Assembly (NCBI RefSeq): GCF_004001245.1
Contig: NZ_AP018724.1
Location: 1,480,501 to 1,544,500 of the forward strand
Length of the DNA stretch: 64,000 nucleotides
DNA from: Sulfurivermis fontis
GTDB taxonomy: Bacteria > Pseudomonadota > Gammaproteobacteria > Thiohalomonadales > Thiohalomonadaceae
Direction: 5' to 3'
Below are positions 2,895-18,752 of the stretch, one piece after another; positions within the stretch are counted from its first letter, which is position 1; every line of letters begins with the position of its first letter. The notes beneath the pieces were generated by a model. That model saw nothing but the letters and a program-made list of their open reading frames with translations. It made no database searches and was not told the origin of the DNA. The position numbers were made by a program, and so were the translations under genes.

Positions 2895-3527
<633 letters not shown>

Positions 3528-3575
3528 TTATTCCGGTATGACGAATCCGGTAATGCTACCACGACGACCACCCTC

Positions 3576-4145
3576 TCAGGCGGCGGGAGCCTCCTCCCAT
3601 TGTTTGAGTATGTCGTTCAGCCCCTTCTTCAAGTTCTTGATCGCCTCGGGCGCCTCGATATCGACGACCTGCTCGATGACCCACTTGTTTTCCGTCCCGC
3701 CCATCACGCCGTCGACGCACTGTCCCAGATAGCGCAGGGACTGGTAGCTGGGCTGGCCGTCGGCAAAACCGAACTCGGCGTAAGCCTCCATGCGTTCGTT
3801 GAGACGCGCAACCACCGCGGCACGGTGATCGCCGGGACCGGAAACGGTGGTCTTGTTGTCCACCAGCGTGCGCACCAGATGCTGGGCGAGTGCCCCCATC
3901 AGCTGCTGGCGCTGTTCATCGGGCAGACGCTCGTAGCACAGGCGATCGGCCAGTTGCAGCAGAAATACGACGAACTCGCCCACCACATCCAGCAACTGTG
4001 CCTGGGAGGAGAAGTTGAAACCGGCGTTGTACATCTTGTCGGCGCGCTCCTGTGCCGCACGCCAGGTGATGAAACCGAGCACCGAGGCCAATTCTTCCAG
4101 CGACTTCGGCTTGTCTTTCTTGTGCCATTTGCTCTTGATACGCAC
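3576..4145 (-). CDS. Conserved-looking hypothetical protein, 189 aa
   Basis: I do not recognise this family. The protein is soluble and mostly helical, with no signal peptide. It begins with a very basic stretch (MRIKSKWHKKDKPKSLEE) and ends with NLKKGLNDILKQWEEAPAA. It starts at GTG 4145, with GAGG 8 nt upstream on the minus strand. It is divergent from the gene at 4254, with a perfect palindrome at 4205-4223 between them, so the two may be co-regulated. It sits 51 bp upstream of tmk and may be transcribed with it. Codon use and GC resemble its neighbours, so I have no reason to think it is not a real gene. Confidence 0.8.
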   Translation of the reverse strand: MRIKSKWHKKDKPKSLEELASVLGFITWRAAQERADKMYNAGFNFSSQAQLLDVVGEFVVFLLQLADRLCYERLPDEQRQQLMGALAQHLVRTLVDNKTTVSGPGDHRAAVVARLNERMEAYAEFGFADGQPSYQSLRYLGQCVDGVMGGTENKWVIEQVVDIEAPEAIKNLKKGLNDILKQWEEAPAA

Positions 4146-4204
4146 GTTGGATCCTCGTTATTCATGGTTGGCAGACCAGGAAAGCCGTGCTAGCTTTGTC
4201 ATAA

Positions 4205-4223
4205 GTTGAGTATTCTACTCAAC
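4205..4223. promoter_or_regulatory. Perfect palindrome in a divergent promoter, candidate operator
   Basis: GTTGAGTATTCTACTCAAC: two 8-bp arms (4205-4212 and 4216-4223) separated by TTC. It lies in the ~110 bp between the divergent genes at 4145 and 4254. The AT-flanked form with TTGA/TCAA cores is loosely reminiscent of Rrf2-family (IscR/NsrR-type) sites, but arm spacing differs and I cannot assign a regulator. No U-tract follows, so it is unlikely to be a terminator. Confidence 0.55.
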
Positions 4224-4253
4224 ATGAGTCACCAAACCAATCGCAGGCCAGCC

Positions 4254-5297
4254 ATGCGCACCGATCTTCACACCCTCACCGCCCAGGTGCAACACAACTG
4301 CCACATCTCGGACGCCCGTCATGCCCGCAACTATTCCCTGTGCATCTACCTGCTCAAGATGCGCGAATATTTCCGCTGGGAAATGGGCTTCGGCTACGAC
4401 GAGCGCCTGCCGGAGAAGCAACTCGGTGACTGGCTGGTGGATCGTGAGCGGTTCTGGGGCGAGTTGGAGGAGCAGGACTACCGCCCTATCGAGGTGAGCG
4501 CACAGACTTACGCCCCGTTCGAGCCGGAAATCATCAATGATCAGTTGCTGCCCAGCGGACTGGTGTACAGCGGCGGTTATGGTGGTCTGTCCAAACCGCA
4601 TTTTTTCCTTGCCGAACTGCACGCAGTGGAACAGCGCCACGGTCGGCGCATCCTGATCACCGGACGGGAACATGCCCGCGATCTTACCGCCCCACCGGCG
4701 ATGACCCTGCAAGGCGAGGTGTATGTGCGGCGCGAATCCCTGCGGCGCATGCTGTGGGAAAAGATCGAGGAATGGCGCTGGCGCCGTCAGGAAAACGCCA
4801 TGGCGCGCGCCATCGCCTTCTACCCGGTGGAGACCGCACTGGAAAGTGCGCTGGATGCGATGACCGCCACGGAAACCGAGGCTGTGGTGCTGCACGAACT
4901 GGGCGAGGTGGAGGCCGGGCAACTGTTCGGCGCGGCCTGGGAGCAGATGCTGAGTGCCGTATGGCATACACGGGCGGAACTGGTGGCACGTGCCGTGCGC
5001 GACCATCTCGCCGACTGCCTGACGACGCTGCCGGCACTGCTGGAAGAGAAGCGTCTCCCCTCCCTCCATTTCTACATGGCCAATCTCAGCGGCATGCGCC
5101 AGGCGCTGTTTCCCGCCCTGAATGACGCTTATCGGGACTGGCTGGAGCGCGGCAGCCTGACTGCGCTGCACGATTGCGTCGGCCGCGGCCAGGAACACTG
5201 GCTGGCCGCAGGCCGGCGCCTGCTGCAGGCCTATGGCGGGGAAGATGATGCGGCGGCGGAACGTATCGATGCCGCGGCCGCGGGAATCGAGCTGTAG
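4254..5297 (+). CDS. Conserved protein, possibly Sfum_1244 family
   Basis: A 347-aa soluble, helix-rich protein with no obvious catalytic motif. The N-terminus (DARHARNYSLCIYLLKMREYF, residues about 19-39) and a Gly/Tyr-rich stretch (LVYSGGYGGLSKPHFFL) are distinctive. They recall a family annotated as 'Sfum_1244 family protein' in sulfur-metabolising bacteria; that identification is from memory and uncertain. In-frame upstream starts exist at ATG 4224 and TTG 4206. I prefer ATG 4254 because the earlier starts lie inside or directly against the palindrome at 4205-4223 and lack a ribosome binding site. It converges on the cysteine-free dsrC paralogue, with a terminator hairpin between them. 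Confidence 0.8.
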   Translation: MRTDLHTLTAQVQHNCHISDARHARNYSLCIYLLKMREYFRWEMGFGYDERLPEKQLGDWLVDRERFWGELEEQDYRPIEVSAQTYAPFEPEIINDQLLPSGLVYSGGYGGLSKPHFFLAELHAVEQRHGRRILITGREHARDLTAPPAMTLQGEVYVRRESLRRMLWEKIEEWRWRRQENAMARAIAFYPVETALESALDAMTATETEAVVLHELGEVEAGQLFGAAWEQMLSAVWHTRAELVARAVRDHLADCLTTLPALLEEKRLPSLHFYMANLSGMRQALFPALNDAYRDWLERGSLTALHDCVGRGQEHWLAAGRRLLQAYGGEDDAAAERIDAAAAGIEL

Positions 5298-5302
5298 AAA
5301 CG

Positions 5303-5328
5303 ACGACGCCCGCCGAAGCGGGCGTCGT
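5303..5328. terminator. Terminator hairpin between convergent genes
   Basis: Perfect 11-bp arms ACGACGCCCGC (5303-5313) and GCGGGCGTCGT (5318-5328) with a CGAA loop. It lies 6 bp after the stop of the gene ending at 5297 and 17 bp beyond the minus-strand stop at 5345. It has no long T-tract but is well placed to end transcription from both sides. Confidence 0.7.
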
Positions 5329-5344
5329 GCGGAGCACGGCAGGC

Positions 5345-5683
5345 TTAGTAACCGCCCTTGCGGCGGGTCTCCGGCAGACCGGCGATCTTGGTGGCCTGCT
5401 TGGAGGGCTGCATCGGGAACAGTTCGTACAGAGCCTTGGCATCGATCTTCTCGCCCCACTTTTCGGACATCGCCTTGACGATGTTGCGATCGTTGGGCTG
5501 GTTGCCGCCGTTGTTGAGGTATTCATCGCGCAGGTAGTTGATCACGTCCCAGGACTTTTCTGTCAGGGTGACCTTCTCGGCCTCAGCGATGACCTTGGCC
5601 ACGTCCTCGTTCCAGTCTTCCAGATTTTCCAGGTAGCCGTTGGCGGTGGCCGCGATGGTCTTGCCGTTTACTTCGTAGGACAT
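5345..5683 (-). CDS. DsrC/TusE-family protein lacking all cysteines (RspA-like)
   Basis: A 112-aa protein with the complete DsrC fold signature: N-terminal VNGKTI...GYLENLEDWNEDVA, central LRDEYLNNGGNQPNDRN and the C-terminal YELFPMQPSKQATKIAGLP block. True DsrC carries sulfur on two C-terminal cysteines. Here Thr98 replaces the first, and the last residues ETRRKGGY replace the tail that carries the second. There is no Cys anywhere in the protein. It therefore cannot act as a sulfur or trisulfide carrier. Such homologues have been called RspA (regulatory sulfur-related proteins). It is the last gene of the unit 7335-5345, 45 bp after the Cas6-like gene and about 2.2 kb from dsrA. The catalytic dsrC (11468) is separate and intact. 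Confidence 0.93.
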   Translation of the reverse strand: MSYEVNGKTIAATANGYLENLEDWNEDVAKVIAEAEKVTLTEKSWDVINYLRDEYLNNGGNQPNDRNIVKAMSEKWGEKIDAKALYELFPMQPSKQATKIAGLPETRRKGGY

Positions 5684-5728
5684 GCTGCTCTCTCCTTCAA
5701 GTTATTTCTAGGTTTAAATCGCAACTTA

Positions 5729-6406
5729 TTATTCGGAATTGACTTTATTGATTGATTTATGCTCGATGAACAGGCCGCAACCCAGCGTGCGCAAGGGGCC
5801 GAGACCGCGCTCCTGCAAGGTCACGGCATCGGCTGGCGGCAACTCGGCCACCATCAGGCTGCGCACATAGATCGGACCATCCGGTGTATGAAAATGGTGT
5901 TGCCTGCCGGCCAGCACCTTCTTGAAGTGCAGGCCCATGGCGCGCATCTGCTGCACCGCCCCGGCAATAAACTGTTCTTCCTCCTGGCCCTCGGGCACAA
6001 CGATATATCGGGCATACATGGTGGCGGCCGGACTGAGTGGAACAATCTTCGCCTCCCCTACGACCAGGCTATGCCCATCAACATCGAGGGTCTGGCCACA
6101 CAGGGCGCGTGCATTTTCCACTCTATCGCGGGCCAGACGCAAGACAAGACGCGTCCGCTTTGACAGATGCAATAATGCCAGGGCGTGGCTGGGGCGCTCC
6201 CAACCATTGCCTGAGTCGGCCACGTGCACCAGATGCAGGCCATCGGACGGGTCATCACCGAACCACGGCAAGGCACGGCGGATGGCAGTGGAAAGGGCGT
6301 AGGCGTGATCCACCGGCAGGGTACGGCAGTCGATGCGGAATGACATATCGACCACGTTGTCCGGAACGGTGAAAAATTCCTTTTGTACGTCCTCTTGCCA
6401 GAACAT
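5729..6406 (-). CDS. Cas6/Cmx6-like protein without CRISPR context
   Basis: A 225-aa protein resembling type I-MYXAN Cas6/Cmx6. Matching elements are an N-terminal V(D)MSFRIDCRTLPVDHAYAL block (19-38) and an RPSHALALLHLSKRTRLVLRL strand region (71-91), followed by LDVDGHSLVVGEAKIVPL. A His/Arg-rich loop GRQHHFHTPDG (167-177) is followed by the glycine-rich C-terminal motif ERGLGPLRTLGCGLFIEHK (199-217), which is diagnostic of the family. Genuine Cas6 proteins cleave pre-crRNA. Here there is no other cas gene and I see no CRISPR array in 64 kb, so a different RNA-related role is likely. It starts at ATG 6406, only 5 bp after the stop of the 238-aa gene, so it is translationally coupled. It is followed by the cysteine-less DsrC paralogue. 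Confidence 0.75.
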   Translation of the reverse strand: MFWQEDVQKEFFTVPDNVVDMSFRIDCRTLPVDHAYALSTAIRRALPWFGDDPSDGLHLVHVADSGNGWERPSHALALLHLSKRTRLVLRLARDRVENARALCGQTLDVDGHSLVVGEAKIVPLSPAATMYARYIVVPEGQEEEQFIAGAVQQMRAMGLHFKKVLAGRQHHFHTPDGPIYVRSLMVAELPPADAVTLQERGLGPLRTLGCGLFIEHKSINKVNSE

Positions 6407-6411
6407 GGGAT

Positions 6412-7128
6412 TCAGTCCGCAGGCAACCGGCTGCGCAGCAGGTCACGATCGTACCACCAGGCATCGGGTACCAGCACGTCGAGCAGCTTGCCGAGGCGCG
6501 GCAGGAGCTTTGCCGGGTCATTCAATTCCAGGCGCTCCACCCAGAAATCGAAAATCTCCTTGTTGTCCACCACTTCACTGTGTTTCTTGGCCACCTCGGC
6601 CAACATGCCGGCGGTGAAGAACTTCAAGTCTTCGCGCTTCTTGCCCTCGGCGCGCAGTTCCACCAGATAGGCGGCAACCGCTGCCGGAATGGCGGCGGCA
6701 TCGGCCTTGGGCGGGGTCTCCTCCACCAGATGCTTGAGCATCAGCACCGAAAGTTCGGGATCGATGGGATAGGTCACTGCCAGCCAGACGCCATGGGCCA
6801 GGGCCTTGATGGCATCGTTCTTCTCGGATTGATAGACGATGTCACAGCCCTGTACCGCCTGCTCCCACAGCTCGGCCGCAAGGGCCTGGCGGAAGCTGTC
6901 GTGTCCCAGGTGCCAGGCATCCTCATTACGTTCGAGGTCGAGGAGGATATAGCCGATGTCATTGCGCAGGGTCAGGCGTTGCGCCAGCGGGGCATCGGCC
7001 GGCAGGGATGCCAGTTCTGCCTCCAACTGGGCCAGCCGCGCCTCCTCCGCCTGTTTCGGACGGATGGCGTCGGAGGCGCACTCGGCCTCGCCTTGTACAG
7101 ATTCGTTTTCCAGTTGCAGATATTTCAC
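6412..7128 (-). CDS. Hypothetical helical-repeat protein, 238 aa
   Basis: I do not recognise this protein. It is acidic, soluble and almost entirely helical. It begins with a coiled-coil-like segment (residues about 25-45, rich in Glu/Ala/Leu), followed by TPR-like helix pairs (LRNDIGYILLDLERNEDAWHLG, then LAHGVWLAVTYPIDPELSVLML). The C-terminal part, VPDAWWYDRDLL, is aromatic. There are no metal or catalytic motifs. Its position between a 59-aa gene and the Cas6-like gene, with 5-27 bp gaps, shows it is part of the same operon. A scaffold or partner-protein role is only inference. Confidence 0.85.
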   Translation of the reverse strand: MKYLQLENESVQGEAECASDAIRPKQAEEARLAQLEAELASLPADAPLAQRLTLRNDIGYILLDLERNEDAWHLGHDSFRQALAAELWEQAVQGCDIVYQSEKNDAIKALAHGVWLAVTYPIDPELSVLMLKHLVEETPPKADAAAIPAAVAAYLVELRAEGKKREDLKFFTAGMLAEVAKKHSEVVDNKEIFDFWVERLELNDPAKLLPRLGKLLDVLVPDAWWYDRDLLRSRLPAD

Positions 7129-7155
7129 GCGTCAATTCCGTGGTTGGGTCGGGCA

Positions 7156-7335
7156 TCAGGAAGTGAAGGCGGCCTCGAGCCGGTCTTCCCAGTTTTCCGG
7201 TGTATTTTCGTAGGTGGGTTTGACGTCGATGCGGAAGAACATCTCGCCCTTGGCCCGCTGCCTTACCACCTCGATCAGCTCCTCGAAGTCATCCAGTTGC
7301 GGGTTCTGGATCATGATTTCGCTTAAATACAGCAT
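7156..7335 (-). CDS. Small hypothetical protein, 59 aa, first gene of the Cas6-like/RspA operon
   Basis: A small acidic protein (MLYLSEIMIQNPQLDDFEEL at the start; VRQRAKGEMFFRIDVKPTYE in the middle). I prefer ATG 7335 because GAGG lies 6-9 nt upstream on the minus strand. The alternative GTG 7362 has no ribosome binding site. The family is unknown to me. It is the promoter-proximal gene of the unit that faces dsrA across the shared intergenic region, 27 bp before the 238-aa gene. Confidence 0.72.
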   Translation of the reverse strand: MLYLSEIMIQNPQLDDFEELIEVVRQRAKGEMFFRIDVKPTYENTPENWEDRLEAAFTS

Positions 7336-7865
7336 CGCTCGCCTCGTCGTCCCCAAAAACACTCTATATATGTGTGGCGCACGCCCTACCCCTTCAAGGG
7401 AAGGCCGGACAGCCCGCCAAATACTTCAGAGAATCAGTAAGTAATGATATTGAACCCGATGCACAAGGCCCGAACAAGTCTTAGTTTATGTCCCCATTCA
7501 TCGCCGTCCGTAGTCACCGGAACAGCAACGAATCACATAAATGACATAAGATAGTTGTTGTAATATATTGATTAATTTCAACTAATTGTATTTCTTATGA
7601 GCCAATAATCCACATTCCAGAAGTCTTTTGTATATCCCATTCAGGATAGTCCTACCCCTCCCCTCCCCCCCATCGGAAGGATACTTCGCTTCATAATGAA
7701 CTTCTAAACTTCGCGCCATGTTGAAAAGGACCACTCTGTCCAGTCCTCTTCAGACTAGGTAGTCGTGCCCCGCGCCGCGTCGCGTCGCCGGGCCAGATGG
7801 ACGGCCAAGGTACCCTCCTCCGGCCGGCCCGAAACCCAACAGATCTCTGACGGGAGAATGACAAC
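7336..7865. promoter_or_regulatory. Divergent AT-rich control region between the Cas6-like/RspA unit and dsrA
   Basis: About 530 bp with no credible gene and, from about 7440 to 7640, much higher AT content than the rest of the window. Landmarks: TAATATATTGATT at 7561-7573 fits the IHF consensus in reverse (YAANNNNTTGATW). The interrupted palindrome GACTAGGTAGTC is at 7753-7764, 102 bp before dsrA. A C-rich tract lies at about 7652-7670. The dsrA ribosome binding site GGGAGA is just before 7866. I could not place convincing -35/-10 boxes for either direction. The region should contain the main dsr promoter, which in related organisms is induced by reduced sulfur. Confidence 0.6.
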
Positions 7866-9122
7866 ATGGCAACCAAGATGCACAAGACTCCGATGCTGGA
7901 CCAGCTGGAGAGCGGCCCGTGGCCGTCCTTCGTAACCGGCCTGAAGCGCCTGGCCAACGACGAGGGCAAGCCCTATGCCGACATGATGAAAGACCTGCTC
8001 GGTCAGCTGGAAACCTCCTACACCACCCGTAAGGGCTACTGGAAGGGCGGTACCGTTGGCGTGGTCGGTTACGGCGGCGGCGTCATTCCCCGCTTCACCG
8101 AGCTGCACGACGAGAACAAGAAGCCGTTGTTCCCGAAGGCCGCCGAGTTCCACACCCTGCGTATCATGCCGCCTGCCGGCATGCACTATGACACCGCTAC
8201 CATCCGCAAGATGTGCGACGTGTGGGACAAGTACGGTTCCGGCCTCGTGGCTTTCCACGGCCAGTCCGGCGACATCATGTTCCAGGGCTGCACCACCGAG
8301 AACGTCCAGCCGGCCTTCGACGAGTTCAACGAGATGGGCTTCGACCTGGGCGGCGCCGGCCCCGCTGTGCGCACCGGCATGTCCTGCGTGGGTGCCGCTC
8401 GCTGCGAGCACTCCTGCTTCAACGAACAGCGTGCCCACCGTACCCTGGTGAACCGCTTCCTGGACGACATGCACCGTCCGGCCCTGCCGTACAAGTTCAA
8501 GTTCAAGGTGTCCGGCTGCCCGAACGACTGCATGAACTCCATCCAGCGCGCCGACATGGCGACCATCGGCACCTGGCGCGACGACATGAAGGTCGACCAG
8601 GCCGAAGTGAAGAACTTCGTCAACGCCAAGGGCCGCAAGTACGTCATCGACAACGTCATCACCCGTTGCCCGACCGGCGCGCTGTCCCTGAACGACGATG
8701 ACACCCTGGCGGTGGACAACAAGAACTGCGTCCGCTGCATGCACTGCATCAACGTCATGACCAAGGCCCTGTCCCCCGGCGATGACAAGGGCGTCACCAT
8801 CCTGGTGGGTGGCAAGCGCACCCTGAAGATCGGCGACCTGATGGGCACCGTGATCGTTCCGTTCATGAAGCTCGAAACCGACGAAGATTTCGAAGCGCTG
8901 GAAGAACTGGCCGGCAACATCATCGACTTCTTCGCCGAGAACGCCCTGGAACACGAGCGTACCGGCGAGATGATCGAGCGTATCGGCCTGGTGAACTTCC
9001 TGGAAGGTATCGGTCTCGAGATCGACCCGAACATGATCACCAACCCGCGCATGAACCCCTACGTCCGTACCGATGGCTGGGACGAAGAGGCCAAGAAGTG
9101 GTTCGAGCGTAAGGCTGGCTAA
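7866..9122 (+). CDS. dsrA: Reverse dissimilatory sulfite reductase, alpha subunit
   Basis: A 418-aa catalytic subunit of cytoplasmic DsrAB, which in sulfur oxidisers converts DsrC-bound sulfane sulfur to sulfite. The siroheme-[4Fe-4S] motif is complete: Cys174-x5-Cys180 and Cys218-x3-Cys222. The inserted ferredoxin domain has Cys268 plus Cys288, Cys291 and Cys294. The start ATG 7866 follows GGGAGAATGACAAC. The oxidative assignment rests on the dsrEFH and dsrL genes in the same operon. It is separated from dsrB by a 97-bp gap containing a strong hairpin. Confidence 0.98.
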   Translation: MATKMHKTPMLDQLESGPWPSFVTGLKRLANDEGKPYADMMKDLLGQLETSYTTRKGYWKGGTVGVVGYGGGVIPRFTELHDENKKPLFPKAAEFHTLRIMPPAGMHYDTATIRKMCDVWDKYGSGLVAFHGQSGDIMFQGCTTENVQPAFDEFNEMGFDLGGAGPAVRTGMSCVGAARCEHSCFNEQRAHRTLVNRFLDDMHRPALPYKFKFKVSGCPNDCMNSIQRADMATIGTWRDDMKVDQAEVKNFVNAKGRKYVIDNVITRCPTGALSLNDDDTLAVDNKNCVRCMHCINVMTKALSPGDDKGVTILVGGKRTLKIGDLMGTVIVPFMKLETDEDFEALEELAGNIIDFFAENALEHERTGEMIERIGLVNFLEGIGLEIDPNMITNPRMNPYVRTDGWDEEAKKWFERKAG

Positions 9123-9144
9123 ACGGTCGGTCCAACAGGAAAAC

Positions 9145-9176
9145 GCGGGGCGTCCCGGGCAACCGGAACGCCCCGC
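9145..9176 (+). other. Intercistronic hairpin between dsrA and dsrB
   Basis: Perfect 9-bp arms GCGGGGCGT (9145-9153) and ACGCCCCGC (9168-9176) around a 14-nt loop. No T-tract follows and dsrB continues in the same direction, so it more likely protects or processes the mRNA than terminates it. It could tune the dsrA:dsrB ratio. Confidence 0.6.
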
Positions 9177-9219
9177 AAACTAAATAACGACGAATTTCTG
9201 AGTGTAATTGGAGGTAATT

Positions 9220-10290
9220 ATGTCTGCACCTCGCATGCCCATCGAGAGTGGTGTACCGGATCCGTTCCCGTATATGCACCCCGCGCTGAAGAAGAACTTC
9301 GGCCAGTGGAAGTACCATGACCGCCCGCGTCCGGGCGTCCTGCACCACGTCGCCAAGAGCGGCGATGAAGTGTGGACCGTGCGCGCCGGTACCCAGCGCC
9401 AGATGGACACCTACACCATCCGCAAGCTGATGGACATCGCCGACCAGTTCGCTGACGGCTATGTGCGTTTCACCATCCGTTCCAACATCGAGTTCATGGT
9501 CACCGACGAGAAGAAGGTGCAGCCGCTGATCGACAAGCTGCAGGCCGAAGGCTTCCCCGTCGGCGGCACCGGTAACTCCGTATCCATGATCTCCCACACC
9601 CAGGGCTGGCTGCACTGCGACATCCCCGGCACCGACGCCTCCGGCGTGGTGAAGGCCCTGATGGACGAGCTGTACGAAGAGTTCATCAAGGAAGAGATGC
9701 CGAACCGCGTGCGCATCACCACCTCCTGCTGCCAGATCAACTGCGGTGGCCAGGGTGACATCGCCATCAACATCCAGCACACCAAGCCGCCCAAGATCAA
9801 CCACGACCTGGTTGCCAATGTGTGCGAGCGCCCGTCCGTCGTGGCCCGCTGCCCGGTAGCGGCCATTCGTCCGGCCATGGTCAATGGCAAGCCGTCCCTG
9901 GAAGTCGATGAGAAGAAGTGCATCTGCTGCGGCGCCTGCTTCCCGCCCTGCCCGCCGATGCAGATCAACGATCCGGAGCACTCCAAGCTGGCCATCTGGG
10001 TGGGCGGCAAGAACTCCAACGCCCGTTCCAAGCCGACCTTCCATAAGCTGGTTGCCGCCGGTATCCCCAACAATCCGCCGCGCTGGCCCGAGGCCGCCGC
10101 TGTGGTGAAGAACATCCTGGCTGCCTACAAGAAGGACGCCAAGGAGTGGGAGCGTATGAACGAGTGGATCGACCGCATCGGTTGGCCTCGTTTCTTCGAG
10201 CTGACTGGCCTGCCGTTCACCAAGTACCACATCGATAACTGGCGTGGTGGCCGCGTGAACCTCAACGCCTCTGCTCACATCCGCTTCTAA
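9220..10290 (+). CDS. dsrB: Reverse dissimilatory sulfite reductase, beta subunit
   Basis: A 356-aa partner of DsrA. Motifs: SCCQINCGGQGD (Cys170, Cys171, Cys175), Cys211 in the RCPV motif, and a ferredoxin segment with Cys234, Cys237, Cys240 and Cys244 (CICCGACFPPC). I start at ATG 9220, preceded by a GGAGG Shine-Dalgarno at 9210-9214. An in-frame TTG at 9208 lies inside that site and is rejected. The next gene, dsrE, follows after 24 bp. Confidence 0.98.
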   Translation: MSAPRMPIESGVPDPFPYMHPALKKNFGQWKYHDRPRPGVLHHVAKSGDEVWTVRAGTQRQMDTYTIRKLMDIADQFADGYVRFTIRSNIEFMVTDEKKVQPLIDKLQAEGFPVGGTGNSVSMISHTQGWLHCDIPGTDASGVVKALMDELYEEFIKEEMPNRVRITTSCCQINCGGQGDIAINIQHTKPPKINHDLVANVCERPSVVARCPVAAIRPAMVNGKPSLEVDEKKCICCGACFPPCPPMQINDPEHSKLAIWVGGKNSNARSKPTFHKLVAAGIPNNPPRWPEAAAVVKNILAAYKKDAKEWERMNEWIDRIGWPRFFELTGLPFTKYHIDNWRGGRVNLNASAHIRF

Positions 10291-10314
10291 AGATACGGAT
10301 AAAGGAAGAGGTCA

Positions 10315-10707
10315 ATGAAGTTTACGATTCAGGTTAACGAAGGCCCGTACACTCATCAGGCATCTGATACGGCATACAACTTCGTCAAGGCAGCTCTGGA
10401 AGCAGGTCACGAGATTTATCGCGTGTTCTTCTACCATGACGGTGTCAACAACGCGACCCGTCTGACTACTCCGCCGCAGGATGACCGCAACGTGGTCAAC
10501 CGCTGGAGTGAGTTGGCTGCCAAGCACAACCTCGACCTCGTCGTATGCGTTGCCGCGGCCCAGCGCCGCGGCATCGCCGACGCCGATGAGGCCAAGCGTA
10601 ATGGCAAAGACGCTGACAATATCGCTCCTGGCTTCCGGATCTCCGGTCTGGGCCAGCTGATCGAGGGCGGTATCCAGTCCGATCGCCTCGTCGTGTTTGG
10701 CGATTAA
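10315..10707 (+). CDS. dsrE: Sulfurtransferase subunit DsrE
   Basis: A 130-aa cytoplasmic subunit of the DsrE2F2H2 hexamer (TusD-like), which passes sulfur towards DsrC. The active-site cysteine is Cys78 (LDLVVCVAAAQRRG), the same position as in Allochromatium vinosum DsrE. A strong ribosome binding site (AGGAAGAGG) precedes ATG 10315. The dsrEFH trio is a marker for sulfur oxidation rather than sulfate reduction. Confidence 0.97.
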   Translation: MKFTIQVNEGPYTHQASDTAYNFVKAALEAGHEIYRVFFYHDGVNNATRLTTPPQDDRNVVNRWSELAAKHNLDLVVCVAAAQRRGIADADEAKRNGKDADNIAPGFRISGLGQLIEGGIQSDRLVVFGD

Positions 10708-10722
10708 TGCGGAGACAGAGTG

Positions 10723-11112
10723 ATGAGTGACGAAGAAATGATGGAAGGCGGCGTGCAGAAGAAGTTCTGCTACATCAACCGCAAGGCCCCCTACGGCACC
10801 ATATATGCCCTGGAGTCCCTGGAAGTCGTGCTGATCGGTGCTGCTTTCGAGCAGGACGTGTCTCTGATTTTCATGGACGACGGCGTGTTCCAGATCACCA
10901 AGGGGCAGGACACTGCCGGCATCGGCATGAAGAACTTCTCCCCCACCTACCGCGCACTCGAAATGTATGACGTCGAGAAGCTGTATGTGTCGGAGGAGTC
11001 GTTGGCAGAGCGCGGCCTGACGGCGGATGACCTGCTGGTGGACGTCGAAGTGCTGAACGCCGAGCAGATCCGCGACCTTATGGAACAGCAGGACGTGATC
11101 CTGAGCTTCTAA
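10723..11112 (+). CDS. dsrF: Sulfurtransferase subunit DsrF
   Basis: A 129-aa TusC-like subunit of the DsrEFH complex. It has the core (YGTIYALESLEVVLIGAAFE) and the DDGVFQI motif of this fold. Cys16 lies near the N-terminus. I use ATG 10723, 7 nt after GGAGAC; the overlapping GTG at 10720 would add one residue only. The stop is 16 bp before dsrH. Confidence 0.96.
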   Translation: MSDEEMMEGGVQKKFCYINRKAPYGTIYALESLEVVLIGAAFEQDVSLIFMDDGVFQITKGQDTAGIGMKNFSPTYRALEMYDVEKLYVSEESLAERGLTADDLLVDVEVLNAEQIRDLMEQQDVILSF

Positions 11113-11128
11113 TTGGGAGAGAAACGAA

Positions 11129-11428
11129 ATGCTGCATACCGTAAACAAGTCGCCGTATGAAAAGAACACCTTTGAAAGCTGCATCAAGCACGCTGCAAAA
11201 GGCAGCGCCGTCCTGTTGATCGAGGATGGCGTTTACGCTGTGCTGAAGGGGTCCGCTGCGGCCGCCAAGGTACAGCAGGCCATGGGTGATATCACCTTTT
11301 ATGCCCTCGAGCCGGACGTTAACGCCCGTGGTCTAAAGGGTAAAGTGATGGATGGTATCAATCTGGTCGATTACGCCGGGTTTGTTGACCTGACCGTCAA
11401 GTTTGATCGTGTTCAATCCTGGCTGTAA
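11129..11428 (+). CDS. dsrH: Sulfurtransferase subunit DsrH
   Basis: A 99-aa TusB-like subunit. It has the family start MLHTVNKSP and one cysteine, Cys18, in the FESCIKHA motif, corresponding to the functional cysteine of DsrH/TusB. The LLIEDGVYA segment is conserved. GGGAGAG precedes the start. It completes the DsrEFH hexamer, with dsrC 39 bp downstream. Confidence 0.96.
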   Translation: MLHTVNKSPYEKNTFESCIKHAAKGSAVLLIEDGVYAVLKGSAAAAKVQQAMGDITFYALEPDVNARGLKGKVMDGINLVDYAGFVDLTVKFDRVQSWL

Positions 11429-11467
11429 GCCTATTCATTCAATCCAACTGATTGAGGAGATAATGTC

Positions 11468-11803
11468 ATGGGTACTATGACTGCTGGTGGTAAGACTGTA
11501 GAAGTCGATGAGGAAGGTTATCTGGTCAATATCAACGACTGGACCCGCGAAATCGCTGATGAGCTGGCCAAGTCCGAAAACGTGACGATGACCGACGCCC
11601 ACTGGGAAGTGATCGACTTCCTGCGCGAGTACTACAACGAGTACCAGATCGCTCCGGCGGTGCGCGTGCTGACCAAGGCCATCGGCAAGAAGCTCGGCCC
11701 CGAGAAGGGCAATAGCAAGTATCTGTACGAGCTGTTCCCCTACGGTCCCGCCAAGCAGGCCTGTAAGATCGCTGGCCTGCCGAAGCCGACCGGCTGTATC
11801 TAA
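11468..11803 (+). CDS. dsrC: Sulfur carrier protein DsrC
   Basis: A 111-aa soluble carrier that receives sulfur from DsrEFH and, as a persulfide/trisulfide, is the substrate of DsrAB. DsrK is thought to oxidise it. The mobile C-terminal arm is canonical (QACKIAGLPKPTGCI), with both redox cysteines, Cys99 and Cys110. This contrasts with the cysteine-free paralogue at 5345. GAGGAG precedes the start. A GC-rich hairpin follows the stop immediately. Confidence 0.98.
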   Translation: MGTMTAGGKTVEVDEEGYLVNINDWTREIADELAKSENVTMTDAHWEVIDFLREYYNEYQIAPAVRVLTKAIGKKLGPEKGNSKYLYELFPYGPAKQACKIAGLPKPTGCI

Positions 11804-11813
11804 TGCTGTGCCC

Positions 11814-11833
11814 GGGGGGCGTTTACGCCCCCC
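11814..11833 (+). terminator. Hairpin after dsrC (attenuator or mRNA-stabilising stem)
   Basis: GGGGGGCG (11814-11821), loop TTTA, CGCCCCCC (11826-11833): a perfect 8-bp, all-GC stem starting 10 bp after the dsrC stop. The downstream tract is CACCCCCTACTTC, not a run of T, so termination would be partial. It fits the need for much more DsrC than DsrMKJOP. Confidence 0.65.
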
Positions 11834-11870
11834 ACCCCCTACTTCAATTCTCTAGCGAGGGTCGATACGA

Positions 11871-12599
11871 ATGTCGTTCCTGACAGTGCTCTACGCACTC
11901 TTGTTCTATACCGCCACGGCGTTGTTCATCGTCGGCCTGGCCTACAAGATTCGCCAGTACGCCACGACGCCCGCTCCGCTCAAGATTCCGACCACGCCCG
12001 CCCCCACCACCACCGGCGGCGTCGTGTTTCGCATGGCCCGCGAGGTCGTGCTGTTTGAAAGCCTGTTCAAGTCCAACAAGTGGATCTGGCTCTTCGGCTG
12101 GATGTTCCATGTCGCTCTGGCCCTGGTGATTCTGCGTCACTTCCGCTATTTCCAGGAGCCGGTGTGGGGCATCATCAGCTTCATCCAGCCCTTCGGCATG
12201 TATGCCGGCTTCTTCATGGTCCTGGGCCTGCTCGGCCTGTGGGTGCGCCGCCTTTTCGTCGAGCGCATCCGCTATATCACCAATCCGTCCGACCACCTGA
12301 TGTTGGCCCTGCTGGTAGGTATCGGTGTCAGCGGCCTGATGATGAAGTTCGTACGCCACACCGACATCGTGATGGTCAAGGCCTTCTTCCTTGGTCTGAT
12401 GCGTTTCGACCTGCAGCCGCTGCCGAACGACGGCCCGCTGCTGGTTCACCTGGCACTGGTGGCCCTGCTGCTGATCGTCTTCCCGTTCAGCAAGCTGCTA
12501 CATGCGCCGGGCGTGTTTTTCAGCCCGACCCGCAATCAGGTCGACAATCCGCGCGAGCGCCGGCATCTCGCGCCCTGGGCCGCGGAACTCGACAAATAA
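11871..12599 (+). CDS. dsrM: DsrM, NarI-like cytochrome b membrane subunit
   Basis: A 242-aa integral membrane protein of the DsrMKJOP complex that couples DsrC redox chemistry to the quinone pool. Several hydrophobic helices are visible (FLTVLYALLFYTATALFIVGL; WIWLFGWMFHVALALVILRH; LLVHLALVALLLIVFPF). Histidines in helices, for example WMFHVALALVILRHF, are candidate heme b ligands. The start is ATG 11871, just after the dsrC hairpin. Confidence 0.95.
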   Translation: MSFLTVLYALLFYTATALFIVGLAYKIRQYATTPAPLKIPTTPAPTTTGGVVFRMAREVVLFESLFKSNKWIWLFGWMFHVALALVILRHFRYFQEPVWGIISFIQPFGMYAGFFMVLGLLGLWVRRLFVERIRYITNPSDHLMLALLVGIGVSGLMMKFVRHTDIVMVKAFFLGLMRFDLQPLPNDGPLLVHLALVALLLIVFPFSKLLHAPGVFFSPTRNQVDNPRERRHLAPWAAELDK

Positions 12600-12636
12600 C
12601 CGAACTTTAAGCGCTTGAACGTATAAGGAGAAACGC

Positions 12637-14205
12637 GTGGCTGCAGCCAAGTTTGACACGCCGAAAATGCGGGAGTACCCGAGCATTCCTGCCCTCCAGC
12701 CGGATGCGACGGCGCACCTGAAGTCTTTCCTCGCGGCACCGGAACACAATACCTTCCTCGGCTTTCCCGGCGAGTTGGTGGAAAACTGGCAGGAAAAGGC
12801 CATCGAAAAGATGGGCGACCTGCTGGGCAAGTACCGTGGCTTGCGCGTGTTCATGGATGCCTGCGTCAAGTGCGGCTCCTGCACCGACAAGTGCCACTAC
12901 TTCCAGGGCACGAGCGATCCGAAGAACATGCCGGTGGCACGCCAGGACCTGCTGCGCAGTGTCTACCGCCGCTACTTCACCTTCGCAGGTAAATTCTTCC
13001 CCGGTCTGGTCGGCGCCCGTGACCTGACCCGTGAAGTGCTGGACGAATGGTACAACTACTTCCACCAGTGTTCGCAGTGCCGTCGCTGTTCGGTGTTCTG
13101 CCCCTACGGCATCGACACCGCCGAGGTCTCCATGGCCGCCCGCGAGATCATGGACTCCATCGGCTACGGCCAGAAGTACTGCAACGAGATCCTCGGCAAG
13201 GTACAGAAAGTCGGCAACAACCTCGGTCTGCCCGGCCCGGCGCTGGAAGCCACGCTGGAAGAGTTCGCGGAAGAGATTTCCGACGACACCGGCTGCAACG
13301 TCGAGATCCCGCTGGATCGCGAAGGTGTGGATGTGCTGCTAATCACGCCGTCCGCAGACTTCTTTGCCGAACCGCACATCGATGGCTTGATGGGCTATGC
13401 CAAGGTGTTCCATGCCGCCGGCATCAGCTGGACCCTGTCCTCCTATGCCTCCGAGGCGGCCAACTTCTCCATGTTCATCGGCTCCTACTCGAACATGAAG
13501 AAAGTCGCCGAGCGCATCCGCAAGGCGGCGCTGGATCTGGGCGTCAAGCGCATCATTGTCGGCGAATGCGGCCATGCCTGGCGCGTAGCCTATTCGTTCT
13601 GGAACACCCTGGCCGGCATCGGTTCCGGTGGCGACGATCCGTACGCGCAACAACTGCAGAAACAACTGGATCACAGCTACCCGATCCCACAGCACATCTG
13701 CGAGTTCACCTGGGACCTGATCCAGCAGGGCAAGCTCAAGTTCGACAAGTCGCAGAACGATCACCGCGTGGTGACCTTCCACGACTCCTGTAATGTGGCC
13801 CGCGCCACCCGCATGGGCACCGAGCCCGGCGGCCAGTTTGACATCCCGCGCAACGTCATCAAGGCAGTGTGTAACAACTATGTCGACATGGCGCCCGACA
13901 CCATCCGCGAAGTGACTTACTGCTGCGGTGGTGGCGGCGGTCTGCTGACCGACGATTTGATGGAACTCCGTGTCAAGGGCGCCCTGCCCCGCATGGAGGC
14001 TCTGAAGAAGGTGATCGACGAAGACAAGGTCAATGCCATGGCGGCGATCTGCGCCATCTGCAAGGCGCAGTTCACCAAGATTATGCCGTACTACGGCATC
14101 CCCATGGATACCATCGTCAGTCTGCACCAGCTGGTGAAGGACGCGATCATTCTTCCCGGACAGGGAGAAGAAGAGGCGGAGCCGGCAGCAGAGGCCACCG
14201 AGTAA
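12637..14205 (+). CDS. dsrK: DsrK, HdrD-like iron-sulfur subunit
   Basis: A 522-aa membrane-associated cytoplasmic subunit related to heterodisulfide reductase HdrD; it is the likely site of DsrC disulfide/trisulfide chemistry. Two [4Fe-4S] motifs are at Cys76/79/82/86 (CVKCGSCTDKC) and Cys145/148/151/155 (CSQCRRCSVFC). The C-terminal CCG-type region includes GECGHAW, HDSCN and YCCGGGGGLL. The start is GTG 12637, with AAGGAG 8 nt upstream. The C-terminal tail is acidic (EEEAEPAAEATE). Confidence 0.97.
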   Translation: MAAAKFDTPKMREYPSIPALQPDATAHLKSFLAAPEHNTFLGFPGELVENWQEKAIEKMGDLLGKYRGLRVFMDACVKCGSCTDKCHYFQGTSDPKNMPVARQDLLRSVYRRYFTFAGKFFPGLVGARDLTREVLDEWYNYFHQCSQCRRCSVFCPYGIDTAEVSMAAREIMDSIGYGQKYCNEILGKVQKVGNNLGLPGPALEATLEEFAEEISDDTGCNVEIPLDREGVDVLLITPSADFFAEPHIDGLMGYAKVFHAAGISWTLSSYASEAANFSMFIGSYSNMKKVAERIRKAALDLGVKRIIVGECGHAWRVAYSFWNTLAGIGSGGDDPYAQQLQKQLDHSYPIPQHICEFTWDLIQQGKLKFDKSQNDHRVVTFHDSCNVARATRMGTEPGGQFDIPRNVIKAVCNNYVDMAPDTIREVTYCCGGGGGLLTDDLMELRVKGALPRMEALKKVIDEDKVNAMAAICAICKAQFTKIMPYYGIPMDTIVSLHQLVKDAIILPGQGEEEAEPAAEATE

Positions 14206-14277
14206 CACTAAATTTCACATCCCGCGGTGCATACCGTCACCGGGGGGAGACAAGGCTACAGGCATAGGAGAGTGAAA

Positions 14278-16266
14278 ATGGCAACTTCTAGCGACGACAT
14301 GAAGAAGGGTTTTACGTACCGCCGCTACAAGGACGGCGACAGCAAGCATCGTCCGTTCTCCCAGGAAATCTGGCAGGCGGGCTGGACCCACAAGTGCCCG
14401 ACCTACGTGCACCGCACCCCACCCTGCCAGGGTAGCTGCCCCTCCGGCCATGACATCCGCGGCTGGCTGGACATCGTGCGCGGTATCGAGAAGCCGACCG
14501 GCGGCATGACCATGCAGGAATACGCTTTCCGTCGCGCCACCAACGCCAACCCCTTTCCCTCCATCATGGGCCGTGTCTGTCCCGCTCCCTGCGAGGACGG
14601 TTGCAACCGCAATCAGGTCGACGACCACGTCGGCATCAACTCCGTGGAGCAGTACATCGGTGACCAGGCCCTGGCCAACGGTTACAAGTACGAAGCCGGC
14701 GCCGATACCGGCAAGAAGGTTGCCGTGATCGGCGGCGGCCCTGCCGGCCTCGCCGCGGCCTATCAGCTGCGCCGCAAAGGCCACGCCGTGACCATCTTCG
14801 AGCAGAAGGACCAACTGGGCGGCATGATGCGCTATGGCATCCCCGGCTATCGTACTCCGCGCGACGTACTGGACGGCGAAATCAAGCGCATTGTCGACAT
14901 GGGCGTCACCATCAAGACCGGCGTGAAGATTGGCAAGGACATCACCGTCGATCAATTGGCCAAGGACTTCGACGCCGTCCTGTTCGCCATGGGTGCCTGG
15001 TCCGGCCGCAATCTGCCGATCCCCGGCGCGGATGCCGTCAATTGCATCACCGGCGTGGCCTTCCTGGCCGCCTTCAATGAAGGTCGCCTGAAGGGCGTAA
15101 GCGGCAAGGTGGTGGTCGTCGGTGGTGGCGACACCTCCATCGACGTCGCCTCCGTCGCCCGTCGTCTCGGCCACATCACCGTGGAGAACGAGAAAGACCG
15201 TCCGGAGCACATCATCATCAACCAGACCGCCCACGACGTGGCCATGACCGCCAATCGCCAAGGTGCCGACGTCATGCTGATCTCCCGCGCTCCCATCAAC
15301 AAGATGCCGGCCGCGCAGCATGAAATCGAAGACGCCACCCGCGAAGGTGTGGAGATCGTCGGTCAGTTGAGCCCGGTCGAAGTCATCAAGGGTAAGGATG
15401 GCCGTGCCACCGCCCTGCGCGTGGTCAAGCTGGAAGAGGACGGCAAGACCCCCATCGCCGGTTCCGAGTTCGATATTCCCTGCGAGCTGATCGTTGCCGC
15501 CATCGGCCAGACCGGTGACGTCGCCGGTTTCGAAGGTTTCGCCAACGACAAGGGCCTGGTCGCTGCCGACAAGCACTTCCAGGTACCGGGCAAACCCGGC
15601 TTCTTCGCCTGCGGTGACATCGTGCGTCCGCACCTGCTGACCACCGCCATCGGCCAGGCCTCCATTGCCGTGGAAAGCATCGACCACTACCTGAACAATC
15701 AGGAGCAGGTTGCCCGTCCGAAGGTCGACGTGCACCACTGGAACCTGATGGAGAAGCTGATGGAGGCCGGCTTGCAGCCGGAGCACTTCGAAGCGGCCAA
15801 CAAGGACGAGATTGCCAAGGCGGAAGGTTTCGTCAAGGACATCGACCGCGGCCTGCGCGGCACCTCCAGTTCCAAGTTCGCCATCCACAACTACGAAGAC
15901 CGCTCTTTCGCCGAAATCATCCCGGCCGATGAGTTGTTCCTGGGCCACTTCAACTACACCCCGCGCAACAAGCGCCAGCACATCATGGTGAATGCCGACG
16001 AGGTGCTGGGCCACTTCCAGGAACGCCTGATCGCCCTGGACGAGAAGCAGGTTATCGACGAGGCCAAGCGTTGCATGAGCTGCGGCATGTGCTTCGAGTG
16101 CGACAACTGCGTGGTGTTCTGCCCGCAGACCGCGGTGAAGCGCGTTCCGGCCAAGGAGAGGACCACCGGCCGTTACGTTTACACCGACTACTCGATGTGC
16201 ATCGGTTGCCATATCTGCGCCGACGTATGTCCGACCGGCTACATCCAGATGGGTATGGGCGACTAA
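14278..16266 (+). CDS. dsrL: DsrL, NAD(P)H:acceptor iron-sulfur flavoprotein
   Basis: A 662-aa GltD-like flavoprotein that interacts with DsrAB and hands electrons from sulfane-sulfur oxidation to NAD(P)+. The N-terminal Cys-rich segment is CPTYVHRTPPCQGSCPSG, then CPAPCEDGC. The FAD site is GGGPAGLAAA, and the second nucleotide site is VVVGGGDTSIDVA. Two C-terminal [4Fe-4S] motifs are CMSCGMCFECDNC...CP and CIGCHICADVC. I use ATG 14278 with GGAGAG upstream; an in-frame GTG at 14227 would add 17 unconserved residues. DsrL is typical of oxidising dsr loci. Confidence 0.97.
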   Translation: MATSSDDMKKGFTYRRYKDGDSKHRPFSQEIWQAGWTHKCPTYVHRTPPCQGSCPSGHDIRGWLDIVRGIEKPTGGMTMQEYAFRRATNANPFPSIMGRVCPAPCEDGCNRNQVDDHVGINSVEQYIGDQALANGYKYEAGADTGKKVAVIGGGPAGLAAAYQLRRKGHAVTIFEQKDQLGGMMRYGIPGYRTPRDVLDGEIKRIVDMGVTIKTGVKIGKDITVDQLAKDFDAVLFAMGAWSGRNLPIPGADAVNCITGVAFLAAFNEGRLKGVSGKVVVVGGGDTSIDVASVARRLGHITVENEKDRPEHIIINQTAHDVAMTANRQGADVMLISRAPINKMPAAQHEIEDATREGVEIVGQLSPVEVIKGKDGRATALRVVKLEEDGKTPIAGSEFDIPCELIVAAIGQTGDVAGFEGFANDKGLVAADKHFQVPGKPGFFACGDIVRPHLLTTAIGQASIAVESIDHYLNNQEQVARPKVDVHHWNLMEKLMEAGLQPEHFEAANKDEIAKAEGFVKDIDRGLRGTSSSKFAIHNYEDRSFAEIIPADELFLGHFNYTPRNKRQHIMVNADEVLGHFQERLIALDEKQVIDEAKRCMSCGMCFECDNCVVFCPQTAVKRVPAKERTTGRYVYTDYSMCIGCHICADVCPTGYIQMGMGD

Positions 16267-16277
16267 GGGTGATCCCG

Positions 16278-16781
16278 ATGAAGCGTTTACTGCAGCTTCT
16301 CTCCATGGCAGTGCTGGCGCTGACTCTGTCGGCGCCGGCCCTCGCCGGTGACGGCGGGCGGACTCCCCTGCCCTCCATTCCCGCGGCCAAGGGTGACCAG
16401 TGTGTGGAAGATACGGCGGTAATGCGCCGTGACCATATGAAGTTCCTCAAGCAGCACCGTGACGCCACCATGCACCAGGGTATCCGTACCAAAAAGTACA
16501 GCCTGAAGGCCTGCCTGGAATGTCACGCGCCGGCGGAGGGCAGCACGGCATCGGCCGGCAAGACGGAAGGGCACTTCTGCGTCAATTGCCACGTCTATGC
16601 CGGTGTCACCCTGGACTGCTTCGAGTGTCACGCCACCAAGCCGGAAACCACCGCGCAGTTCCATCCGCTGGTGAGCCCGGCCGCTGCGGCGCTGAAGGCA
16701 ACGGAACGTACCGACTCCACCGTGCTGCTCAATCGTCTGGTGGGGATCTCTGAGAACAAGGCAGGTGTTGCCCATGAGTGA
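16278..16781 (+). CDS. dsrJ: DsrJ, periplasmic triheme cytochrome c
   Basis: A 167-aa protein with an N-terminal signal/anchor (MKRLLQLLSMAVLALTLSAP). Three CxxCH heme sites are CLECH (79-83), CVNCH (101-105) and CFECH (114-118). Cys42, ahead of the hemes, corresponds in position to the cysteine that ligates one heme in A. vinosum DsrJ. It starts at ATG 16278; a longer reading from 16071 lies in the wrong frame over dsrL. The last 8 nt overlap dsrO. Confidence 0.97.
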   Translation: MKRLLQLLSMAVLALTLSAPALAGDGGRTPLPSIPAAKGDQCVEDTAVMRRDHMKFLKQHRDATMHQGIRTKKYSLKACLECHAPAEGSTASAGKTEGHFCVNCHVYAGVTLDCFECHATKPETTAQFHPLVSPAAAALKATERTDSTVLLNRLVGISENKAGVAHE

Positions 16782-17523
16782 TCACAAGCAACCGGATCTG
16801 ACGCGTCGTGAATTCCTCGGCCAGGGTGCCGCCGCGGCCGGCGTGCTGCTGGCCCCCGGCGTCATGCTGTACGGCGTGGCCCAGGCCAAGCCGGCGGATG
16901 AGCCGGCAAGCAGCAAGGTGCGCTGGGGCATGCTGGTGGATACCAGCAAGTGCAGCAGCGGTTGCAATGCCTGCGTCGATGCCTGCAACAAGGAGCACGG
17001 CCTGGGTAACGAAACCCACAGCCGCGCCACGCAGCGTACCCAGTACATCCGCAAGGTGGAACTGCGCCATAAGTTCACCGGCGCCACCCACTCGCTGCCG
17101 GTGATGTGCCAGCACTGCGAGACGCCGCCCTGCGTGGATGTCTGCCCCACCGGCGCTTCGTTCAAGCGCGCCGATGGTATTGTGCTGGTCGACCGCCACA
17201 TCTGCATCGGTTGCCGCTATTGCATGATGGCCTGCCCGTACAAGGCGCGCTCCTTCGTGCACGAGACGCTGACCGATCAGCGCCCGCACCAGCCGCGCGG
17301 CAAGGGCTGTGTCGAGGCCTGCACCATGTGCGTACACCGCGTCGACGAAGGCCGTCAGCCTGCTTGTGTCGAGGCCTGCGCGGCCGATGGCAGCAATGCG
17401 ATCATCTTCGGTGACCTGAACGATCCCACTAGCGAAATCGCCCAGCGTGTGAAGACCTACGCCAGCAGCGAAATCCGTGCTGACCTCGGTCTCAACACCG
17501 GTGTGCGCTATCAGGGCCTTTAA
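16774..17523 (+). CDS. dsrO: DsrO, periplasmic iron-sulfur protein with Tat signal
   Basis: A 249-aa subunit of DsrMKJOP. It has a twin-arginine signal (TRREFLGQGAAAAGVLL) within residues 9-25. Four [4Fe-4S] motifs follow: CSSGCNACVDAC, CQHCETPPCVDVC, CIGCRYCMMAC and CTMC...CVEAC. I use ATG 16774, not GTG 16765, because the signal peptide then has normal length and the overlap with dsrJ is the ATGAGTGA type. Confidence 0.97.
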   Translation: MSDHKQPDLTRREFLGQGAAAAGVLLAPGVMLYGVAQAKPADEPASSKVRWGMLVDTSKCSSGCNACVDACNKEHGLGNETHSRATQRTQYIRKVELRHKFTGATHSLPVMCQHCETPPCVDVCPTGASFKRADGIVLVDRHICIGCRYCMMACPYKARSFVHETLTDQRPHQPRGKGCVEACTMCVHRVDEGRQPACVEACAADGSNAIIFGDLNDPTSEIAQRVKTYASSEIRADLGLNTGVRYQGL

Positions 17524-17543
17524 CGGGAAGGTGAGCTTCTAGC

Positions 17544-18752
17544 ATGAAAAATACTAAGTTCCTGGAGATCGGCAGCGGCAAGGGCTATTACGGCCTGCTG
17601 GCGCTGTTGGGGGTGTTCATCCTGGCCGGCCTGAGTTCCTTCTTCTATATGGAGCACAGCGGCCACTGGGTGACGGGGATGGATAACCAGATCGTGTGGG
17701 GCGCCCCGCACGTGTTTGCCATCTTCCTCATCGTGGCGGCCTCCGGCGCACTCAACGTGGCCTCCATCGGCACGGTGTTCGGCAAGCAGATGTATCAGCC
17801 GCTGGGCCGCATGTCCGCCCTGCTGGCCATTGCCCTGCTCATCGGCGGCCTGACCGTGCTGGTGCTGGACCTGGGGCGGCCGGATCGCCTCATCGTCGCG
17901 ATGACTCACTACAACTTCAAGTCCATCTTCGCGTGGAACATCATCCTGTATAACGGCTTCCTCGGTCTGGTTGCCGTGTATATCTGGACCATGATGGACC
18001 CCAACCCGGCGGTGAAGAAGTTCTACAAGGTTGCCGGCTTCGCCTCCTTCGTCTGGCGTCTGATCCTCACCACCGGTACCGGCTCCATCTTCGGCTGGCT
18101 GGTGGCGCGGCAGGCCTATGATGCCGCGATCATGGCCCCGATGTTCATCGTCATGTCCTTCTCCTTCGGTCTGGCGGTGTTCATGTTGGTGATGATGGCC
18201 ACCTACAGCTGGACCGGCCGCCCGCTGGGCGATGCCGTGGTGCGACGTCTGAAGAATCTGCTCGGCGTGTTCATCGGCGGCGTGCTGTACTTCGTCATGG
18301 TCTATCACCTGACCAACCTGTATGCCACGGAGCATCACGGTGTGGAGGCCTTCATCCTGCGTGACGGCGGCGTGTTCACCAAGGTGTTCTGGATCGGTCA
18401 GATCTTCCTCGGCAGCCTGCTGCCGCTGGGCCTGCTGTTCTGCCGTTTCACCCGCGACTCCCGCTTCTGGATCGGTGTCGCCTCCGCCCTCGTGATACTC
18501 GGTGGCTTTGCCCAGCTGTACGTGCTGCTCATCGGCGGCCAGGCCTACCCGCTGGTACTGTTCCCGGGCTATGAAGTCAGCAGCACCTTTGCCGATGGTG
18601 TGGTCAACAGCTACAGTCCGAGCCTGCCCGAACTGGTGCTGGGCTTCTCCGGCATCGCCGTTGCCATGGCCCTGATGGTGGTGGGCATGCGCGTGCTGCG
18701 TCTGACCCCGGCCAGTCTGGCCGACGCGGCCGTCGACCCGCATCACAAGTAA
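17544..18752 (+). CDS. dsrP: DsrP, NrfD-like integral membrane subunit
   Basis: A 402-aa polytopic membrane protein of the NrfD/PsrC type, with about ten hydrophobic helices (first: GLLALLGVFILAGLSSFFYM). In DsrMKJOP it is the second quinone-interacting subunit, partnered by DsrO. It starts 20 bp after dsrO. A perfect terminator-like hairpin 40 bp downstream separates it from the rest of the locus. Confidence 0.96.
   Translation: MKNTKFLEIGSGKGYYGLLALLGVFILAGLSSFFYMEHSGHWVTGMDNQIVWGAPHVFAIFLIVAASGALNVASIGTVFGKQMYQPLGRMSALLAIALLIGGLTVLVLDLGRPDRLIVAMTHYNFKSIFAWNIILYNGFLGLVAVYIWTMMDPNPAVKKFYKVAGFASFVWRLILTTGTGSIFGWLVARQAYDAAIMAPMFIVMSFSFGLAVFMLVMMATYSWTGRPLGDAVVRRLKNLLGVFIGGVLYFVMVYHLTNLYATEHHGVEAFILRDGGVFTKVFWIGQIFLGSLLPLGLLFCRFTRDSRFWIGVASALVILGGFAQLYVLLIGGQAYPLVLFPGYEVSSTFADGVVNSYSPSLPELVLGFSGIAVAMALMVVGMRVLRLTPASLADAAVDPHHK

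Follow-up and report, generated by a model that had tools for sequence, protein, structure and literature searches.

What does a Cas6-like protein do when it is encoded opposite the dsr genes, beside a relative of DsrC and with no CRISPR array in sight? Reverse-Dsr sulfur oxidizers and animal symbionts are widespread, and regulation of the pathway is poorly known. We followed up this question for a 64,000-nt stretch of the Sulfurivermis fontis genome (the window, meaning the whole stretch analysed), for which a sequence-only reading had proposed a domesticated Cas6 working with a DsrC-like partner. The four-gene minus-strand unit described there proved correct in its coordinates, strands, lengths and gaps: in the order s59, 238-aa protein, cas6 and rspA, the genes are separated by 27, 5 and 45 bp, and the unit is divergent from dsrA, with 530 bp between s59 and the dsrA start at 7866. 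The features of the locus are as follows.

3576–4145, minus strand: 189-aa protein that probably extends the unit (20 of 73 loci have it no more than 4 kb from cas6)
5345–5683, minus strand: rspA, cysteine-free DsrC/TusE-family protein ending RKGGY (PF04358, alignment with DsrC)
about 5348–5362, minus strand: C-terminal RKGGY tail of RspA, replacing the cysteine arm of DsrC
5729–6406, minus strand: dsr-linked cas6, 225 aa (PF09559, TIGR02807, AF2, Foldseek, invariant H34)
6307–6305, minus strand: codon of the presumed catalytic His34 of Cas6, invariant in 135 of 135 sequences
6412–7128, minus strand: 238-aa all-helical repeat-like protein, GTG start (AF2, Foldseek)
7156–7335, minus strand: s59, conserved 59-aa protein (neighbourhood count, consensus, dN/dS)
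7336–7865, no strand: control region common to s59 and dsrA
7633–7648, no strand: dyad TATCCCATTCAGGATA, candidate dsr operator, kept upstream of dsrA across families
7866–16266, plus strand: dsrABEFHCMKL (dsrA above the TIGR02064 cut-off; it reads away from cas6 in 59 of 73 loci)
9145–9176, plus strand: dsrA-dsrB intercistronic hairpin
11814–11833, plus strand: dsrC-dsrM intercistronic hairpin

The dsr-linked Cas6 protein

Profile, predicted fold and residues make a solid case that the 225-aa protein is a true member of the Cas6 family. It matches PF09559 at 3.8e-59 (200.3 bits, cut-off 26.7) and TIGR02807 with 122.9 bits (cut-off 98.85), and several PADLOC Cas6 models match it as well, as does, at the sequence level, the solved Cas6 of a type I-B CAST. 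The structure prediction is confident (AF2 mean pLDDT 89.8) and, together with Foldseek, assigns the double RRM-like fold of Cas6; the structure comparison that the sequence-only reading had called for returned Cas6 or Cascade entries for all of the best 45 matches, with solved Cas6 structures first. These lines of evidence agree, and the relation to Cas6 that had been read from the letters alone is confirmed by profile search. By alignment, which compares sequences rather than superposed active sites, H34 is invariant in 135 of 135 dsr-type and 6 of 6 CRISPR-type sequences, and this first-helix histidine presumably occupies the position of the catalytic histidine in Cas6 enzymes. For the C-terminal Gly-rich loop (G201–G211), residues G201, G203, G209, G211 and F213 are kept in both types. 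The dsr-type proteins additionally have nearly invariant residues of their own, namely W3, GNGWxRP (66–72), R84, E143, K163 and K217, and a maximum-likelihood tree places the 6 CRISPR-linked sequences apart from 66 dsr-type sequences with support of 99/95. Between congeners, cas6 evolves with a dN/dS of 0.12–0.23, as expected under purifying selection, and catalysis could have been lost in the dsr-type proteins despite their invariant residues.

Co-occurrence with DsrA and separation from CRISPR systems

Across 370 genomes of the class with completeness of at least 90%, where PF09559 matches were taken as Cas6 and strong TIGR02064 matches as DsrA, Cas6 is found in 128 genomes, DsrA in 125 and both in 122 (phi 0.946, Fisher p 5e-86, a value that overstates the independent evidence because the sampled genomes are kin). 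Of 273 sampled genera, 94 include a Cas6 carrier. A dsr-type gene is present in five of the 6 Cas6 genomes that lack DsrA, in most cases at the end of a contig and pointing to where dsrA would be expected. The remaining genome, G374, carries a genuine CRISPR locus with Cas3, Cas7 and nearby cas-type genes; Cas1 is encoded on the same contig. It is the sole CRISPR-linked relative in the class sample, having neither DsrA nor a DsrC-family match. Conversely, among the 3 DsrA genomes without Cas6, two (G116 and G128) have contig breaks at the expected place and the third (G206) may represent a real loss. A second, separate sample of 299 genomes from the phylum Pseudomonadota contains four Cas6 carriers, the present genome and L231–L233, which are probably Betaproteobacteria, and the gene is dsr-linked in all four. 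The cas6 gene is kept even in genomes of 1.0–1.1 Mb (L211–L213). Among its cultured carriers are Thioalkalivibrio denitrificans (L128) and Sedimenticola selenatireducens (L105). Four genomes (G005, G012, G014 and G019) have a second dsrA copy elsewhere.

The gene neighbourhood was counted over 73 non-redundant Cas6 loci that have 4 kb of sequence to either side, in preference to an iterated-profile count that fell to 14 loci and was set aside. Within 4 kb of cas6 we found s59 on the same strand in 61 loci, RspA in 60 and dsrA, always on the opposite strand, in 59, while a TauD-like oxygenase and the 238-aa protein each occur near cas6 in 38. The recurrent order is [TauD oxygenase]-s59-[238-aa protein]-cas6-rspA, with the bracketed genes variable. 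The genes of the unit co-occur with each other and with dsr (s59, RspA and dsrA near cas6 in 59–61 of 73 loci; Cas6 with DsrA in 122 genomes), an association on which the sequence-only reading had depended. In L231–L233, cas6-rspA likewise faces dsrA, DUF6967 precedes cas6 in two of the three, and the 189-aa protein lies downstream, directly after rspA in L231 and L233. A small helical protein that matches no Pfam family occurs in 39 loci (for example L128:11338-11541 and L211:8855-9079, 67–74 aa in these two); where its position was inspected, it is encoded downstream of rspA. In about 10 loci a rhodanese gene closely follows rspA, for example in L232:10211-11062, L238:219-1070, L108, L124, L140 and L146.

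The statement that there is no array and no other cas gene stands for the window, which holds no CRISPR-like repeat array and no cas gene adjoining the dsr-linked cas6, but fails for the rest of the genome. The same 3.25-Mb contig carries, around 712–731 kb, a I-E locus that includes Cas6e and a long array, and a III-D-like locus near 1.35 Mb of the genome encodes Cas10, Cas5_IIId and its own Cas6. Since each system has its own Cas6, the dsr-linked protein is needed by neither, and it is not the sole Cas6 of a complete CRISPR-Cas locus, the situation that the sequence-only reading had named as fatal to its proposal. The I-E array comprises more than 100 repeats (L004:17747 to L005, about 722.7–731 kb of the genome), and a second, small array with a 37-nt-type repeat lies separately from it at L005:6567-6979. 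The dsr-type Cas6 also differs from the Cas6 of type I-MYXAN systems, in that its neighbours are dsr genes in place of adjacent cas3, cas8, cas7, cas5 and an array, and in that its distribution does not track adaptation genes: in the 370 genomes its phi with Cas1 is 0.105, and 67 of the 128 Cas6 carriers have no Cas1. Nearly all dsr-type Cas6 loci are free of a nearby array. In L222 (G346; from 2487 and 6526–7266) only a few kb separate a dsr-type Cas6 from a CRISPR-like repeat array, possibly by chance.

Partner proteins, candidate RNAs and the control region

The cysteine-free DsrC paralogue of the sequence-only reading is upheld. The protein, whose name RspA and supposed regulatory role we adopt from that reading, matches PF04358 at 1.3e-33 and the DsrC/TusE profile TIGR03342 with 101.7 bits (cut-off 53.5), and is alignable with DsrC throughout. 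Both DsrC cysteines are replaced, the tail reads RKGGY, and the protein contains no cysteine at all, so that the two C-terminal cysteines of redox-active DsrC are missing. Cysteine is similarly absent from 66 of 78 cas6-adjacent RspA copies, and the tail is GKGGY in L231–L233. The GG(Y) end is reminiscent of sulfur-carrier proteins that expose GG. Of 10 genomes without a cas6-adjacent RspA, 7 encode an RKGGY-tailed RspA elsewhere.

No Pfam or NCBIfam family was matched by either the 238-aa or the 59-aa protein. The 238-aa protein is predicted to consist entirely of helices (AF2 pLDDT 90.5), and compared with TPR proteins it gave weak TPR-like Foldseek matches only (best E 0.014) and no consistent Pfam match. 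The small protein s59 has the consensus motif DvkPpfxDTPxxWEdrlExaF and a dN/dS of 0.02–0.04. The TauD-like 2OG oxygenase keeps WHtDGYY and NNvLHxR in 52 sequences, preserving the HxD...H iron-binding motif. It is found beside s59/cas6 in, for example, L082, L083, L086, L108, L112 and L211, and is missing from the unit in the window.

The sequence-only reading had further offered the intercistronic hairpins in the dsr transcript as plausible substrates of Cas6. The hairpins at 9145 and 11814 are present in the window and recur in position: stems of at least 8 pairs occur in 79% of the gaps between dsrA and dsrB and in 90% of those between dsrC and dsrM, as compared with 16–20% of dsrB-dsrE and dsrH-dsrC gaps. 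However, neither stems nor flanks share any sequence across loci, and several Cas6 carriers, including genomes of about 1 Mb, lack them. For these two reasons we set the hairpins aside as Cas6 sites and retain them as weak substrate candidates; they may simply be stabilizers or attenuators. Rfam gave no credible match in 3000–22000, and hairpin, Rfam and stem/flank comparisons found no sequence-conserved RNA substrate in the surroundings of the unit. In Allochromatium vinosum, differential dsr transcript levels have been reported (PMC3397948), as have internal promoters (PMC3368242); the former are compatible with RNA processing, and the internal promoter of dsrC could account for the higher level of its transcript.

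We also considered, and rejected, a structured RNA within the dsrA leader, as the sequence is conserved but the folding z-score is only -1.4 and the core resembles a DNA dyad rather than an RNA. This dyad, TATCCC-N4/5-GGGATA, and the blocks that follow it upstream of dsrA (block 7619–7872) are conserved across families, and in the genome the pattern is matched exactly at only two sites, one of them 7633–7648. In L063, which contains a detached unit, the dyad was not found, and in that genome it lies upstream of dsrA instead (L069), from which we conclude that it is a feature of dsrA and not of cas6; its absence from L063 rules it out as an operator common to detached units. Judged from sequence conservation, the dyad and the conserved block are a candidate dsr operator.

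A possible RNA-directed role in sulfur oxidation

Because Cas6 is kept almost only together with DsrAB and adjoins dsr rather than CRISPR genes, it may control sulfur oxidation via RNA. The retention of the active site and the RNA-binding loop, purifying selection and strict dsr linkage point to such an RNA-directed role. We give a probability of about 0.55 to the reading that this is a Cas6-family ribonuclease taken from CRISPR and dedicated to reverse-Dsr sulfur oxidation, where it controls the dsr regulon by cutting RNA. The proposal of a domesticated Cas6 with a DsrC-like partner thus survives in its Cas6 family membership, its independence from CRISPR and its tie to dsr; its further elements, namely RNA cleavage, a reading of sulfur status and the dsr hairpins as substrates, are conjectural. 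In the mechanism that we envisage, the Gly-rich loop of Cas6 would bind a structured cellular RNA and His34 would cut it, so that the dsr regulon is controlled at a post-transcriptional step; RspA, as a non-redox look-alike of DsrC, would recruit the complex either to the Dsr machinery or to the control region of dsr, and the helical 238-aa protein would serve as a scaffold. A dsr transcript is our leading guess for the RNA substrate, with about one chance in three of being right. More tentatively, and at somewhat less than even odds, the exapted endoribonuclease would be a dedicated post-transcriptional controller of energy metabolism that cuts a specific cellular RNA and whose activity or targeting depends on the RKGGY-tailed, cysteine-free DsrC mimic and, in many genomes, on the 2-oxoglutarate oxygenase.

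The strongest rival to RNA cutting, which we consider unlikely though deserving of attention, is a non-catalytic role in which the Cas6 fold regulates without cleavage, either by binding an RNA or by keeping RspA and the helical protein together. Its conserved protein partners and the dsr-specific invariant residues that lie away from the presumed active site (W3 to K217, listed above) would suit such a role, but a pure binder has no need of a catalytic-position histidine that never varies. The membership of RspA in the TusE/DsrC family and the rhodanese genes downstream of rspA suggest instead that Cas6 and a TusE-like partner bind or trim thiouridine-linked tRNA; we find this distinctly improbable, as RspA has none of the cysteines required for sulfur relay and the linkage is to DsrA, not to general tRNA modification. 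Slightly less probable again is a unit that matures or modifies Dsr proteins without any involvement of RNA, built on the TauD-like oxygenase with its intact HTD...H motif and on the conserved GGY-ending tail of RspA, since it leaves the conserved Gly-rich RNA-binding loop and His34 unexplained. That the protein processes pre-crRNA in trans for arrays of its host genome is barely credible: the TIGR02807 match, the arrays elsewhere in the genome and the array in L222 speak for it, but the lack of correlation with Cas1, the other Cas6 proteins of both local CRISPR systems, the retention of cas6 in genomes of about 1 Mb and the scarcity of nearby arrays rule it out for practical purposes.

The analysis identifies a near-universal partner of gammaproteobacterial DsrA, one that is readily overlooked because profile libraries label it a CRISPR protein; PF09559 and TIGR02807 matches in sulfur oxidizers should not be tallied as CRISPR systems. 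It also provides a clean example of a cas gene family outside CRISPR, with a candidate active site in His34, partners and candidate RNAs. If the reading of an exapted endoribonuclease controlled by these partners is true, most gammaproteobacterial reverse-Dsr sulfur oxidizers would have in common a non-CRISPR RNA-processing complex. We found no paper in the open-access literature that ties Cas6 to dsr in a relevant way.

Compared with known systems, the dsr-type protein shares its profile family, histidine position and Gly-rich loop with the Cas6/Cmx6 of type I-MYXAN (for example L204 of G374 and cyanobacterial plasmids), but the latter adjoins cas3, cas8, cas7 and cas5 whereas the former adjoins dsrA and rspA and forms a separate clade with extra invariant residues. 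On a Gloeobacter plasmid (L223), in what is perhaps a type IV-like locus, a gene of the phosphoadenosine phosphosulfate reductase family lies two genes away from a PF09559 Cas6. The closest solved structure is the Cas6 of type I-B CAST (PDB 8fcj/8fcu; 23% identity, TM 0.76–0.80), which works within Cascade with TniQ and has an Asn opposite His34 in a pairwise alignment. RspA shares the TIGR03342 profile and a location near dsr with the DsrC/TusE family, but DsrC ends in GC(V/I) and RspA, devoid of cysteine, in RKGGY. The dev locus of Myxococcus xanthus links a type I CRISPR-Cas system to sporulation. There, as here, a CRISPR-type module has a place in host physiology, but the dev locus is a whole cas operon with arrays, whereas here Cas6 stands alone beside sulfur genes.
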